From Phycicoccus sp. Root101 (GTDB lineage: Bacteria; Actinomycetota; Actinomycetes; Actinomycetales; Dermatophilaceae): a stretch of DNA of 64,000 bases. The translations under genes and the position numbers were made by a program. The stretch's first letter is position 1; every line of letters begins with the position of its first letter. The stretch spans positions 532,865 to 596,864 of the forward strand of contig NZ_LMCM01000006.1 of assembly GCF_001426245.1 (NCBI RefSeq). The letters are read 5' to 3'. The notes under the pieces were generated by a model. The model made no database searches, was not told where the DNA came from, and was given only the letters and a program-made list of their open reading frames with translations. Shown here one piece after another: positions 8,759-21,905 of this stretch.

Positions 8759-9418
8759 ATGGTCCTGGACTGCGAACTCATCCTCCCGTGCCGCAACGAG
8801 GCGCGAGCCCTGCCGGCCCTGCTCGCCAGGGTTCCCGCGGGCATGTCCGTCCTGGTCGTCGACAACGGCTCGACCGACGGAACCGCCGACGTCGCCCGCG
8901 GGCTGGGGGCGCGGGTGGTGGTCGAGCACCGTCCCGGGTACGGCGCAGCGGTCCAGGCCGGAGTGGCCGCGGCCCGAGCGAGGTACGTCGCCGTGATGGA
9001 CGGCGACGGTTCGCTGGACCCGGCGGAGCTGCTCCCCCTGCTCGAGGACGTCGCCGGAGGCCGGGCCACGATGGCCGTCGGGCGACGCCGCCCCGTCACC
9101 AGAGCCACCATGGACTGGCACGCGAAGGTCTTCAACGTGGTGGCGGCGTGGTGGATCGGCAGACGCACCGGGTTGCGGCTCCATGACGTCCCCTCCGTTC
9201 GGGTGACGCGCCGCGCAGACCTGCTCGCGCTCGGGGTCCGGGACCTGCGCTTCGGGTACCCGGTGGAGGTCCTGGTGAGGGCACACCGAGCAGGATGGTC
9301 CGTCGTCGAGCACGACATGACGTACCGGCCGCGGGCCGAGGGCACGACCTCCAAGGTGTCCGGCTCTTTGCTCGGCTCGGCCAGGGCTGCGCACGACCTC
9401 GTCAAGGCCCTCCCGTGA
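8759..9418 (+). CDS. GT2 family glycosyltransferase (DPM1-like)
   Basis: A 219-residue GT-A fold glycosyltransferase. ELILPCRNEARALPALL at residues 6-22 and VVDNGSTDGTADVA near 32-45 are the nucleotide-sugar binding signatures. VMDGDGSLDPAEL near 79-91 holds the DxD-type metal site. The enzyme is short and has no membrane segment, like dolichyl-phosphate mannose synthase catalytic domains. It is the first gene of a + strand operon; its stop overlaps the GTG of the next gene (GTGA). Likely donor is a GDP- or UDP-sugar; a lipid acceptor is an inference from the GT-C-like neighbour. Confidence 0.88.
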   Translation: MVLDCELILPCRNEARALPALLARVPAGMSVLVVDNGSTDGTADVARGLGARVVVEHRPGYGAAVQAGVAAARARYVAVMDGDGSLDPAELLPLLEDVAGGRATMAVGRRRPVTRATMDWHAKVFNVVAAWWIGRRTGLRLHDVPSVRVTRRADLLALGVRDLRFGYPVEVLVRAHRAGWSVVEHDMTYRPRAEGTTSKVSGSLLGSARAAHDLVKALP

Positions 9419-10098
9419 ACGGCGCGACGATCCTCGTGGTGGCCAAGGCCCCGGTCGCGGGTGAGGTGAAGACCCGCCTCGCAGCCACCGTGGGAGCACA
9501 CCACGCCGCACGCCTGGCGCAGGCGGCCCTGCTGGACACGCTGGCCGTGTGCGAGTCCGTCTTTCCGCAGGGACGTCGCGTGCTCGCGCTGGCCGGGAGC
9601 CTCCACCGTGCCGTCGACCCCGCCCAGCTGCTCCAGGCGCTGACCGGTTGGCACGTGGTCGGCCAGGACGGTCCGACGTTCGCGCACCGGCTCGCCACCG
9701 CGCACCGGGACGTCCACGCCACCCACGGCGGCCCGGTCGTCCAGCTCGGGATGGACACGCCCCACGTCACCGCCGGGCACCTCGAGGACGTCATCGCGGC
9801 CACCCGTGACGGTCGCCCCGTCCTGGGGCGTGCGCCGGACGGAGGCTGGTGGGTGCTGGCCACCACCTCGCCCGGGGACGTGGCCGGGCTGCACCTGGTG
9901 CCGATGTCCCACCCGGACACGTGGGTGCGCACCCGGGCCGCCGTGGAGGGCGCTGCCGGGACCGTCCTGCACACCGCCGAGCTCGGAGACGTCGACACCG
10001 CCTCGGACGCCCACGCAGTCGCCGCAGCAGCACCGCACACCAGGTTCGCCCACGCGTGGCGGCAGCTGGACACCACCCCGGAGAGCAGGACCGCATGA
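9415..10098 (+). CDS. TIGR04282-like glycosyltransferase (DUF2064)
   Basis: A 227-residue protein of the family annotated TIGR04282, arsenosugar-biosynthesis glycosyltransferase/DUF2064. The N-terminus ILVVAKAPVAGEVKTRLAATVG is the pyrophosphorylase-like loop with the conserved KTRL. LGMDTPHVTAGHLEDVI near residue 110 and LGRAPDGGWWVLA near 140 are the other family blocks. The start is the GTG at 9415 overlapping the previous stop. No other arsenosugar genes are nearby, so the arsenic link need not apply here. It is commonly seen next to DPM1-like GT2 genes in actinobacteria, as here. Confidence 0.82.
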   Translation: MNGATILVVAKAPVAGEVKTRLAATVGAHHAARLAQAALLDTLAVCESVFPQGRRVLALAGSLHRAVDPAQLLQALTGWHVVGQDGPTFAHRLATAHRDVHATHGGPVVQLGMDTPHVTAGHLEDVIAATRDGRPVLGRAPDGGWWVLATTSPGDVAGLHLVPMSHPDTWVRTRAAVEGAAGTVLHTAELGDVDTASDAHAVAAAAPHTRFAHAWRQLDTTPESRTA

Positions 10099-19124: not shown

Positions 19125-19436
19125 TCATCCATCCCCTGTGGAGGTCGTCGGACGGTCGTGCACGCTTCGATGGGCCATGTCGAAGGTCGACAGGACTTCG
19201 ACGAGGAAGTCGCTGGCCGCCGCCGTGATCGAAGGTATCTCCTGCTCCTGCGCCCCGGCGAGGACTTCGGCCAACACTCGGTGATGGACTCCGACAAGGT
19301 TCAGGAGGCTCACCCTGTCGTCGATCGCGTTGCGCCCCAGCTGGTAGCCGAGCGCCAGCGCTGCTTCACTCCGCTGTGGGAGGTAGCGCAGGAATGCGGC
19401 CCGGTAGTCACGCAGCAGGTCCTCCAGCCTGGTCAC
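19125..19436 (-). CDS. Stand-alone RsbU N-terminal (RsbU_N) domain protein
   Basis: A 103-residue helical protein starting at a GTG that overlaps the RsbS-like stop (GTGA). LEDLLRDYRAAFLRYLPQRSEAALALGYQLGRNAI and LLNLVGVHHRVLAEVL fit the RsbU_N (KipI-like four-helix) domain, which binds the kinase RsbT in the general stress pathway. The PP2C phosphatase domain that follows RsbU_N in true RsbU is absent: the frame stops after MAHRSVHDRPTTSTGDG. It is the last gene of the stressosome operon. It may sequester the RsbT domain of the sigma fusion, or act as an adaptor. The functional role is inferred. Confidence 0.75.
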   Translation of the reverse strand: MTRLEDLLRDYRAAFLRYLPQRSEAALALGYQLGRNAIDDRVSLLNLVGVHHRVLAEVLAGAQEQEIPSITAAASDFLVEVLSTFDMAHRSVHDRPTTSTGDG

Positions 19437-19813
19437 GAAGCACCCACAGCCCGAAGCCGGGCGAGGTAGGCGAGGCCTTCCTCCAGGTCCAGGGCGGTCG
19501 GCACCTGCCCCATGTCCATGCCCAGGCGCACCATCGCGAAAGCCACCTCGGGCTGGATGCCCACGATCACGGTGGTCGCACCCCGCAACCGGGCGATGTC
19601 GGCGATGGAGCGCAGGGTTCGGGACCCGAAGCTGTCGATCACGTCGAGGGCGGCGACGTCGATGATGATCCCGCGCGCCCGGACCTCGCCGATCTGCCTC
19701 ACGAGGTCGTTCTGGAACCGGATCATCTCGGAGTCGTCGAGGGCAGTGTGAACCGACGCCACAAGGGTGTCGCCTTGTCGCAGGATGGAGACGAGCGCCG
19801 GTCCTGAGTTCAC
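19433..19813 (-). CDS. rsbS: RsbS-like STAS-domain stressosome protein
   Basis: A 126-residue single STAS domain. VSILRQGDTLVASVHTALDD opens it, and GIIIDVAALDVIDSFGSRTL near 48-67 matches the RsbS phosphorylation region, in which the Ser of DSF is phosphorylated by RsbT. VGIQPEVAFAMVRLGMDM and TALDLEEGLAYLARL are further RsbS-specific stretches. The GTG at 19813 overlaps the RsbR-like stop. It should co-assemble with the RsbR-like protein and hold the RsbT domain of the fusion protein until its Ser is phosphorylated. Confidence 0.88.
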   Translation of the reverse strand: MNSGPALVSILRQGDTLVASVHTALDDSEMIRFQNDLVRQIGEVRARGIIIDVAALDVIDSFGSRTLRSIADIARLRGATTVIVGIQPEVAFAMVRLGMDMGQVPTALDLEEGLAYLARLRAVGAS

Positions 19814-20703
19814 GAGCCTTCACTCACCTCCTTGCGGGTGACGGAGTAGCCAAGCAGGCGCTCTGCCTCCTCGAGACCCCCTTGGAGGTCGCCGATGGTG
19901 TTCATCTTGCTCAGGTCGACACCGATGGTGACCAAGGTCTGGGCGATGGTTGGCGACAGGCCGGTGATGATGACGCTTGCCCCCATCAGTCGCGACGCGT
20001 CCACGGTCTGCACGAGGTGGTTGGCGACCGTCTCATCGACGTCCGGAGCGCCGGTGATGTCGATGACGACCACCTTGGCGCGATGGGTGCGTATGCCGCT
20101 CAGCAGCTGCTCGGTGAGCTGCTTGGCACGCTCGCTGTCCAGGACACCGATGATCGGGAGGATGAGAAGCCTCTCGCGCACGGGCAGCACAGGCGTGGAC
20201 AACTCACGGATGGCATCCTGCTGCTGGCGGATGACCCGCTCGCGCTCGTCCACGAAGCTGACGGCGACGGTGTTCGCGATGCGGTTCGCGGCGGGCTCGT
20301 AGGCATCGAGGATCTGGTTGAGCAGCCCGAAGTCTCGTTGGTACTTCTCGAACAGCGAGCGTGCGAGGACGTCGCGCAGAAGGAGGACGATGCCGACGAC
20401 CTCATGGGTTTCCACGCCTCTGGGGATGATGCGTTCCGAGAGGTCACGGGCGTAGTGCTGCAGCGCCTCGACGCTCCCGGTCTCGAGCACCTCGACATAG
20501 TTGTCGTACACCGAGGTGGTCTCGGCGACCATCTCCTGTGGGGTCATCGCCTCGAGCAGGTGGGCGTCACGGATCCGGGAAGCCCACTCGTCGCGCAGCT
20601 TGGCCCGGTGCTCCCTCAGGTGGGCCACCAGCTGCGGCAGGAGATGGTTCCCCGACAACGAGGAGCCTGGTTCCGTGTCCATCGCGGTTTCGTCGGTGTT
20701 CAT
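19810..20703 (-). CDS. rsbR: RsbR-like stressosome sensor with C-terminal STAS domain
   Basis: A 297-residue protein. Residues about 20-165 are an all-helical, globin-fold-like N-terminal region (HLREHRAKLRDEWASRIRD, then a long helix with LARSLFEKYQRDFGLL). A linker VRQQQDAIRELSTPVLPV follows, then a STAS domain with VVVIDITGAPDVDETVANHLV. Its Thr in DITG corresponds to a known RsbR phosphorylation site, and GLSPTIAQTLVTIGVDL lies near the second. The ATG at 20703 overlaps the stop of the sigma-RsbT fusion (ATGA). It would form the stressosome core with the RsbS-like protein and receive the stress input. Confidence 0.87.
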   Translation of the reverse strand: MNTDETAMDTEPGSSLSGNHLLPQLVAHLREHRAKLRDEWASRIRDAHLLEAMTPQEMVAETTSVYDNYVEVLETGSVEALQHYARDLSERIIPRGVETHEVVGIVLLLRDVLARSLFEKYQRDFGLLNQILDAYEPAANRIANTVAVSFVDERERVIRQQQDAIRELSTPVLPVRERLLILPIIGVLDSERAKQLTEQLLSGIRTHRAKVVVIDITGAPDVDETVANHLVQTVDASRLMGASVIITGLSPTIAQTLVTIGVDLSKMNTIGDLQGGLEEAERLLGYSVTRKEVSEGS

Positions 20704-21788
20704 GCGGATCCCTTCGGGTCGAACCACTTGGTCATGCTGACAGTCGTTCCGTGACCTGCCTCCGAGACGAGGTTGAACTCGTCCATGAGTCGTCGGGCGC
20801 CGGGAAGGCCCAACCCGAGCCCGCTGTAGGTGCTGTAGCCGTCCTGGAGCGCGGCCTCGACGTCCGCGATGCCCGGTCCCATGTCCCTGGCGACCACCCG
20901 GATCCCGCGGCGTGGCCGCTCCAGGAGCTCGATCGTCACGTCGCCGTTGTCGGCGAACCGGACGATGTTGCGGGCGACCTCGGAGACAGCGGTGGCAAGC
21001 ATGGTGAGGTCGGTGCCGGTGAAGCCGGCCTGGGCGGCCAGGTCTCGTGCCGCTCGCCGGGCGGACACGATGTCAGGGTCGGCTCCGATGGTCACGTGGA
21101 GAACATCGTCCCGGACCGGTCCACGGTCCAGCAGCGGTTCGCTGAGCCGGGCGCACACGTCGCACTCCAGCAGGTGCCGGGCAGCGTCCACCTCACGCTG
21201 GCGACGCCGGTCAGCACTCGACAGAGCCAGGAGGACAGGCCTGCACCTGTCGGTGGGTGGCTCGATGTGGTCGAGCGCCAAGAGGTACTCGACGCGGAGC
21301 CGCGCGCGTGTTCTCTTGAGCTGGGCGGCAACAGCCCCGGCCGTGCTCCCCGCTTCGTCGGCCAGCATCTGCGTGGCGGCGCCGCTGACCTCGTGGGCGA
21401 GCAGCACCTGTCTCTCGCGGTCGGTGAGCCTGCGCAGGGCCTCGTTGATGGCGAGCTGCTCCTCCGAGGCGACCAGCACGTTCTCGACGTCATCCGGCTG
21501 GGTGGGATCGAAGACCCTGTGTCGATTGCGCACCTCACGGTCGTCCCTGCGCCACATCGTCGCCATGACGTTGCGGACGGTCGCGATCGCGTATGGCTCG
21601 ATCATGCCGGGTTCGATCCGGTCCTCGGCGGCCAGGACCCGCACAAGAGTTTCCTGCACGAGATCCTCAGCCGACGGATGCTGTCCGACGCGAGCCGCGA
21701 CGATGCGGCGCAGCATCGGGATCAGAGCGGCGACGTCCTCCGCCCCTCCCGGCTCTGGAGGCTGGTCCGCCGTCCTGGCCGTCGTCAC
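20700..21788 (-). CDS. ECF-like sigma factor fused to a zinc finger and an RsbT-like kinase
   Basis: A 362-residue three-part protein. Residues 20-90 are sigma region 2 (VGQHPSAEDLVQETLVRVLAAED, then MIEPYAIATVRNVMATMWRRDDRE). Region 4 is near 112-165 (EALRRLTDRERQVLLAHEVSG, then STAGAVAAQLKRTRARLRVEYL). HLLECDVCARL near 205 has the H-x3-C-x2-C zinc site of anti-sigma domains. Residues 230-362 are a GHKL ATPase of the RsbT type: VSEVARNIVRFA (N-box), VARDMGPGIADVE (G1) and YSGLGLGLPGARRLMDEF (G2). The start is the GTG at 21788, with TAGGGT 8-13 bases ahead, suggesting a leaderless transcript. It heads an operon with RsbR, RsbS and RsbU_N. No separate rsbT is present. Confidence 0.86.
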   Translation of the reverse strand: MTTARTADQPPEPGGAEDVAALIPMLRRIVAARVGQHPSAEDLVQETLVRVLAAEDRIEPGMIEPYAIATVRNVMATMWRRDDREVRNRHRVFDPTQPDDVENVLVASEEQLAINEALRRLTDRERQVLLAHEVSGAATQMLADEAGSTAGAVAAQLKRTRARLRVEYLLALDHIEPPTDRCRPVLLALSSADRRRQREVDAARHLLECDVCARLSEPLLDRGPVRDDVLHVTIGADPDIVSARRAARDLAAQAGFTGTDLTMLATAVSEVARNIVRFADNGDVTIELLERPRRGIRVVARDMGPGIADVEAALQDGYSTYSGLGLGLPGARRLMDEFNLVSEAGHGTTVSMTKWFDPKGSA

Positions 21789-21905
21789 GAGGCCGACCCT
21801 ACGCCGGAGGACGGCGCTCCACCTCTCTGACGTGCGGCTTTGTCGGAGCGCGAGGCAGTAGCCAGCAAGGTAGGCCTCCTGCAGGCAACGCAGCCCTGAC
21901 CCGTT

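Follow-up and report, generated by a model that had tools for sequence, protein, structure and literature searches.

A stressosome operon of Actinomycetota in which an RsbT-type kinase is joined to an extracytoplasmic function sigma factor and a probable anti-sigma zinc domain

The four-gene operon and the parts of the fusion

The stretch of DNA analyzed here (the window) comprises 64,000 nucleotides of Phycicoccus sp. Root101, a member of the Dermatophilaceae (contig NZ_LMCM01000006.1 of assembly GCF_001426245.1, positions 532,865 to 596,864), and its subject is a minus-strand operon of four genes, from 21788 to 19125, in which the stressosome kinase RsbT forms one chain with a sigma factor. 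The original prediction had placed the genes at these coordinates and described a 362-residue protein with sigma regions 2 and 4, an HxxxCxxC motif and an RsbT-type kinase with N, G1 and G2 boxes, in an operon with RsbR-like, RsbS-like and lone RsbU_N genes. All of these parts are present, with an extra cysteine upstream of the zinc motif, and the operon is borne out by Pfam matches and by tight junctions. The fusion gene (20700..21788, GTG start) comes first, followed by RsbR (19810..20703), RsbS (19433..19813) and RsbU_N (19125..19436), and successive genes overlap by four bases, with ATGA between the fusion and RsbR and GTGA at the RsbR/RsbS and RsbS/RsbU_N junctions. These overlaps make the ATG at 20703 the most likely start of RsbR (297 aa; the frame is open from a GTG at 20727, giving 305 aa) and the GTG at 19436 that of RsbU_N (103 aa). 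The operon was also predicted to hold no phosphatase, RsbV or RsbW; this stands, as none of the four places in the genome that match PF07228 lies inside it, and no RsbV, RsbW or SigB gene is found there. A search of the genome (4.4 Mb, rated 100% complete) returned a single full-length copy of the fusion.

The sigma part begins with region 2 (21537..21731, residues 20-84), which matches Sigma70_r2 in Pfam (3e-11), and continues with region 4 and its helix-turn-helix (21297..21455, residues 112-164), for which the match to Sigma70_r4_2 is slightly below the curated cut-off (6e-5). The NCBIfam model sigma70-ECF spans residues 23-167 above its cut-off (1.2e-17), and Sigma70_r3 matches four places in the genome, none of them in the fusion gene. 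By these matches the sigma part is of the extracytoplasmic function (ECF) type, with regions 2 and 4 and without region 3. An alignment of 19 of the 26 fusions from the family shows D42, Q45 and E46 of region 2 to be invariant (19/19); we take the D-x-x-Q-E motif that they form to be the core-binding element.

The kinase (20721..21083, residues 236-356) matches HATPase_c_2 over residues 241-354 (Pfam, 9e-14) and shares 44% identity over 126 residues with an RsbT from Lysinibacillus (Bacillales), labelled "anti-sigma regulatory factor", whose gene adjoins those of a PP2C phosphatase, a STAS protein, RsbW and SigB. A survey of the phylum returned 11 proteins that match the kinase only, and the nine of these given as loci entered a gene-context check: the non-fused kinase directly follows RsbR and RsbS in all nine, and an RsbU_N match lies downstream in seven, in an open frame of 299-503 aa in six cases and of 169 aa in one. 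Two of these RsbU_N proteins bear, by eye, GGDEF-like or HD-like effectors. By sequence and gene context, the kinase is of the RsbT type. R244 and R248 of the fusion, both invariant, align with R19 and R23 of RsbT, in the numbering of the B. subtilis sequence. Both arginines have been implicated in RsbU binding (PMC12143880). Under our own locus labels, used here and below, the RsbU_N proteins at L142 (2408-3397) and L143 (3-902), in actinobacterial RsbRST operons, appear by eye to consist of RsbU_N joined to HD-type and GGDEF-type domains.

RsbR combines a STAS domain (Pfam, 1e-14) with a marginal RsbRD_N match (7e-5, slightly below the cut-off), and solved RsbR chains match it over residues 36-300 (2e-37); RsbS is a single STAS domain (Pfam, 5e-13) with a match of 2.5e-24 to solved RsbS. 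We aligned RsbR, RsbS and RsbU_N across 33 loci, having dropped L177 (a near-copy of L151), L172 (a remnant) and L173 (at a contig end). Ser61 of RsbS (codon 19633-19631) lines up with the serine that is phosphorylated, in the DSF motif of solved RsbS proteins, and is invariant in 33/33. In RsbR, the site aligned with B. subtilis T171, the STAS phospho-threonine other than T205, is S in 24, T in 2 and another residue in 7 of the 33, and the residue aligned with T241, the partner of Listeria T209, is T in every one. The sensor domain of RsbR (gene at window 20703-19810) has long invariant runs in 33/33 loci, which suggests one specific ligand, and a close relative of it is found where RsbR, RsbS and RsbT genes, in that order, form operons of canonical appearance together with PP2C and STAS genes (L227-L229). 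At one locus, L040, a second RsbS-like STAS gene (9241-9780) lies just downstream of the four-gene operon.

The last gene encodes a protein that matches RsbU_N (Pfam, 6e-16) and little else. In 33/33 loci the chain continues for only 6 to 37 residues past alignment column 95 (near residue 84 of RsbU), with no effector. RsbT contacts residues 82-112 of the RsbU linker (PMC12143880), and in the 33 loci columns 100-105, where RsbU T89 to Q94 would fall, vary or contain gaps, leaving the linker without a conserved counterpart. The RsbT contact E24 of RsbU aligns with E30 of the lone domain, which is invariant (33/33), as are Y37 and H57, and the gene is present in 34/34 complete loci. It accounts for the one RsbU_N match in the genome, and no RsbU_N was seen in any of the four PP2C phosphatases (PF07228), either by eye or in the genome search for that domain. 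Because the only RsbU_N found in this genome carries no effector, output seems to have passed from RsbU to RsbT.

Upstream of the fusion gene lies a -10-like TAGGGT (21796..21801, minus strand), 7 nt from the start codon. Of 34 loci (L172, the remnant, and L177, the near-copy, were dropped), 26 have a TANNNT hexamer whose end lies 4-9 nt ahead of an in-frame start codon; when the 20 nt preceding each start were shuffled 1000 times, the mean count was 1.2 and the highest 6 of 34. Since the hexamer adjoins the start codon so much more often than in shuffled sequence, the transcript probably begins at the fusion gene itself, without a leader.

The zinc domain and its membrane-anchored relatives

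Between the sigma part and the kinase lies the motif C182-x22-H205-x3-C209-x2-C212 (21153..21245), which marks a probable class I anti-sigma domain. Its four residues are invariant in 19/19 aligned fusions, and the spacing is identical in 35/35 fusions and in 10/10 of the membrane-anchored relatives tested. In the predicted structure of the fusion, H205 falls within a helix (196-208) and C212 within the next (210-219), with C209 between them. An Hx3Cx2C motif over helices 2 and 3 is reported as the mark of zinc-binding class I anti-sigma domains (PMC7406223). Fold evidence for the domain was sought through two structure predictions and Foldseek, and none was obtained; the model of the isolated domain is of low confidence (predicted local distance difference test, pLDDT, 63).

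Across the class, order and phylum surveys, 11 proteins match the sigma and zinc parts only (expectation value, E, up to 1e-50), and ten of them entered a motif and hydropathy test, the eleventh (genome G1065, L137) being left out. A stretch resembling a membrane helix lies 13 to 45 residues after the zinc motif in 10/10, followed by another domain. The maximum hydropathy over 19 residues is 1.68-2.35 in these ten and 0.92-1.60 in the 35 fusions, where it falls within the kinase; by hydropathy alone the margin is narrow, and by this test the fusions have no membrane helix after the zinc finger. A Pfam scan of four of the sigma-zinc-membrane proteins gave nothing beyond the sigma regions over the cut-off (4/4). 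Proteins of this architecture (L132, L133, L137, L178-L187) end in a C-terminal domain with a motif resembling DEGFWVG...VWVQL.

In layout, these relatives match ECF48, ECF52 and ECF53, groups in which a sigma factor is reported to be fused to a zinc-finger-bearing anti-sigma part in the membrane (PMC8999054). For one of these, SCO4117 (ECF52), the protein deprived of its zinc finger, membrane and carbohydrate parts is reported to have activated expression of its own gene (PMC5826349). The fusion shares with these groups an ECF sigma factor followed in one chain by a zinc-finger, probably anti-sigma, domain, and the relatives that we found carry the same sigma-zinc module; it differs in having an RsbT kinase where they have a membrane helix and an outside domain. 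Because the module recurs in membrane proteins built like known fusions of sigma and anti-sigma factors, the zinc domain of the fusion is probably an anti-sigma brake acting in cis, a proposal drawn from motif, position and kinship.

Distribution and origin of the fusion

The survey of genomes for the same fusion that the original prediction had suggested gives at least 35 loci, spread over four or more families of Actinomycetota. In the Dermatophilaceae, matches at E up to 1e-40 occur in 27 of 186 genomes; 26 of the matches (Root101 included) are nearly full-length and one, in genome G139, covers the kinase only. The other 25 family fusions are 54-81% identical to that of the window. Presence is patchy even within the window's own genus, where six of 11 genomes have the whole fusion, one has a remnant and four have no match at E 1e-40. 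The wider surveys were samples: 394 genomes of the class gave six matches (four full-length, two of them already counted), 396 of the order gave ten (nine full-length, all already counted), and 396 of the phylum gave 20 (four full-length, two already counted); the three samples contributed four new loci in all. A list of named genomes, which serves as a lower bound, adds among the matches listed two Nocardioidaceae metagenome-assembled genomes (MAGs), Geodermatophilus aquaeductus, Modestobacter caceresii and a Nocardioides MAG as new carriers; a Tetrasphaera MAG and two Humibacillus xanthopallidus, also among the matches listed, were already within the family copies. On plasmids, 106 records have a match, none of which covers 80% of the query.

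All four genes occur in the same order and on the same strand at 34 of 36 loci, the two exceptions being L173, which ends at a contig end, and L172, the decayed remnant in G139. Among the 19 aligned fusions, mean pairwise identity is similar across the domains (0.69 for sigma region 2, 0.68 for region 4, 0.72 for the zinc part and 0.71 for the kinase) and falls to 0.48 and 0.44 in the linkers at residues 85-111 and 220-235. A chance fusion or an assembly error is ruled out by the 35 loci, the existence of unfused relatives of both halves and the similar conservation of the domains. We also considered whether G139 (L034/L172) holds a free-standing kinase derived from the fusion, but as far as we can tell it is no working variant: only a kinase piece and neighboring traces align, and RsbR, RsbS and RsbU_N were not found in 14 kb. 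The remnant (L172, 7153-8224), a kinase piece with flanking traces, lies 0.5-0.8 kb from a tRNA-Thr gene.

Two quick trees, each with 34 fusion rows, address the origin of the fusion. L177 was dropped from both and L172 from the sigma tree, and L005, which has two stops, was excluded from the ECF outgroup of the sigma tree. The fusions do not form one clade in either (two changes in each): L175 and L176, the two phylum-distant fusions, group with the membrane forms in the sigma tree (support 99) and with free RsbT in the kinase tree (94); the kinase tree retains L172 as a separate group. The trees are compatible with a single fusion of the sigma-zinc module to RsbT, with the L175/L176 lineage deepest and closest to the unfused relatives of both halves, though the rooting, on long branches, is unsure.

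A proposed direct link from stressosome to sigma factor, and its alternatives

The anatomy of the operon gives good support to a direct link between stressosome and sigma factor, since the kinase is fused to the sigma factor, RsbR and RsbS are encoded in the same operon, Ser61 of RsbS is invariant, the genome has no phosphatase found to bear an RsbU_N domain, and single-sequence queries of unproven sensitivity gave no PP2C, RsbV or RsbX match in the flanks of 36 loci. The Bacillus/Listeria system (RsbRST with RsbU, RsbV, RsbW and SigB) has the same RsbR-type sensor/STAS protein, RsbS phospho-serine, RsbT kinase and RsbU_N domain; here, however, RsbT forms one chain with an ECF sigma factor, RsbU_N stands without a phosphatase, genes for RsbV, RsbW and SigB are missing from the operon, and the genes run T-R-S-U, not R-S-T-U. 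The effector, carried by RsbU_N in the known pathway, is here carried by RsbT. Stressosome modules of the RSTX type are reported to have other outputs, namely two-component systems and cyclic di-GMP (PMC9237108). They resemble this operon in lacking a SigB relay, and some of their outputs carry RsbU_N on the effector, whereas here the effector is a sigma factor on RsbT and no RsbX was found beside the operon. In the open-licence PMC literature, judged by titles and the openings of abstracts, we found no description of an RsbT-sigma fusion. Both halves are of known kinds, and, as far as we searched, their joining, the bare RsbU_N protein and the direct wiring of stressosome to sigma factor are undescribed.

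According to the original prediction, release from the stressosome might free the sigma factor directly. The direct link stands on the anatomy; simple release appears incomplete, given the probable zinc brake in cis and a lone RsbU_N gene in every complete locus. On balance, we favor an account in which a stressosome directly controls an ECF sigma factor that the zinc domain holds back in cis, an RsbU_N dimer being the second partner; we infer the polarity of the switch, zinc binding, sigma activity and the role of RsbU_N from sequence. In unstressed cells, the RsbT part would be docked on the RsbR/RsbS core while the zinc domain clamps the sigma regions, keeping sigma off. Upon stress sensed by RsbR, the kinase part would phosphorylate RsbS at Ser61 and the sigma-zinc-RsbT protein would leave the core as a whole; the freed RsbT part could then bind the RsbU_N dimer, which may stabilize the freed state and help to open the clamp, allowing sigma to bind RNA polymerase. 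Reset would fall to a PP2C phosphatase whose gene lies elsewhere. Sequence shows the parts themselves; we infer the course of events, the clamp, the reset and what RsbU_N does. A bolder version, possible but doubtful, would turn the pathway round altogether, the kinase carrying both the sigma factor and its brake. The bare RsbU_N dimer would then be the activator, taking up a pair of freed sigma-RsbT molecules and opening the zinc clamp of each, so that release, partner switching and transcription would all fall to a single molecule, with no RsbV/RsbW relay.

Among the alternatives, the strongest concern the role of RsbU_N and the polarity of the switch. The lone RsbU_N protein could be a sink that captures the freed fusion and so ends the response or silences a basal pool; this is unlikely, although capture is the simplest activity that the anatomy permits for a domain with neither effector nor conserved linker, as elsewhere the binding of RsbT to RsbU_N and its linker activates (PMC12143880). 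The polarity might also be the opposite of that proposed, such that the GHKL part acts on its own sigma regions as an anti-sigma factor like RsbW or SpoIIAB and is drawn off them by docking on unphosphorylated RsbS/RsbR, with sigma active while the fusion is docked and off after phosphorylation. The GHKL kinases RsbW and SpoIIAB are known to bind sigma factors, and SpoIIAB chains are the best fold matches of the model, with RsbW within the top ten. This ranking is non-discriminating, however, because none of the 25 solved structures matched by sequence is named RsbT. The fusion kinase shares with these two the fold of a GHKL serine kinase but differs in its covalent attachment to sigma and in being RsbT-type, not RsbW-type, by sequence and gene context; moreover, a separate probable anti-sigma domain sits between sigma and kinase. 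We consider opposite polarity rather improbable.

A decoy role for the sigma part would leave the kinase functional and make the sigma regions a tether as in PhyR, with no working sigma factor. Such a role would fit a weak match of the fusion to PhyR_sigma2 in Pfam, below the cut-off, and the lack of a conserved ECF-type promoter upstream of the operon, but it is made very improbable by the invariance of D42, Q45 and E46 and by the conservation of both sigma regions to the level of the kinase; also, no NepR-like gene was noticed in the operon, though no dedicated search was made. It might finally be argued that the kinase chiefly serves an RsbU-type effector elsewhere and that its fusion to sigma is incidental, as canonical RsbT acts in trans and the genome has four PP2C phosphatases. 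With the lone protein as the only RsbU_N found in the genome and no RsbU_N seen by eye in the four PP2Cs, we regard this as extremely improbable.

Several observations weigh against the mechanism that we favor, namely cis restraint by the zinc domain and release of the fusion from the stressosome. Pfam, PDB-sequence and Foldseek searches gave no supporting match for the zinc domain. The structure prediction of the fusion alone, proposed at the outset and run here with AlphaFold, puts H205-C212 at the junction of two helices, but its predicted template modeling score (pTM 0.40) is too low to define domain packing. At the interface with RsbU, N24 of RsbT, the third RsbU-binding residue, is changed in the fusion, and in the lone RsbU_N the contacts Y28 and I78 of RsbU are changed and I74 is variable. 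The phospho-site T205 of B. subtilis RsbR corresponds to T209 of Listeria (PMC9237128), and the aligned residue is E in 20, Q in 7, V in 3, A in 2 and H in 1 of the 33 loci, never T or S, which leaves the established phosphorylation scheme incomplete here; the frequent natural glutamate at this second site may mimic a phosphate. No reset phosphatase was found beside the operon: single-sequence queries at 1e-4 for PP2C, RsbV and RsbX in the flanks of the 36 loci gave no match, with a sensitivity that is unproven, there being no positive control. At one of the 36 loci (L149), another HATPase gene lies nearby and matches one in the Root101 genome. Lastly, the aligned -10 motif of the 34 operons has no conserved -35, and there is therefore no sign of autoregulation, which we do not claim. 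A gapped-word search upstream of the 34 operons likewise yielded no clear signal, the best word pair (11 loci, against 7 to 9 in shuffles) being the -10 element and the start codon.

Known stressosome outputs use separate target proteins, whereas here the switch kinase and a transcription factor are one chain. The compact operon, common to distant actinobacteria, amounts to a minimal system: four proteins could suffice to rebuild sensing, kinase release and transcription, and the function of RsbU_N can be studied apart from that of its effector. If the zinc domain is indeed a built-in anti-sigma domain, the kinase of a cytoplasmic stress complex replaces the membrane sensor of its relatives, and input modules have been swapped behind one sigma/anti-sigma core. 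Elsewhere in the window, about 9 kb from the operon, lies a SigB/SigF-looking sigma factor gene (31600-30931, minus strand) with a region 3 match at 31338-31192.

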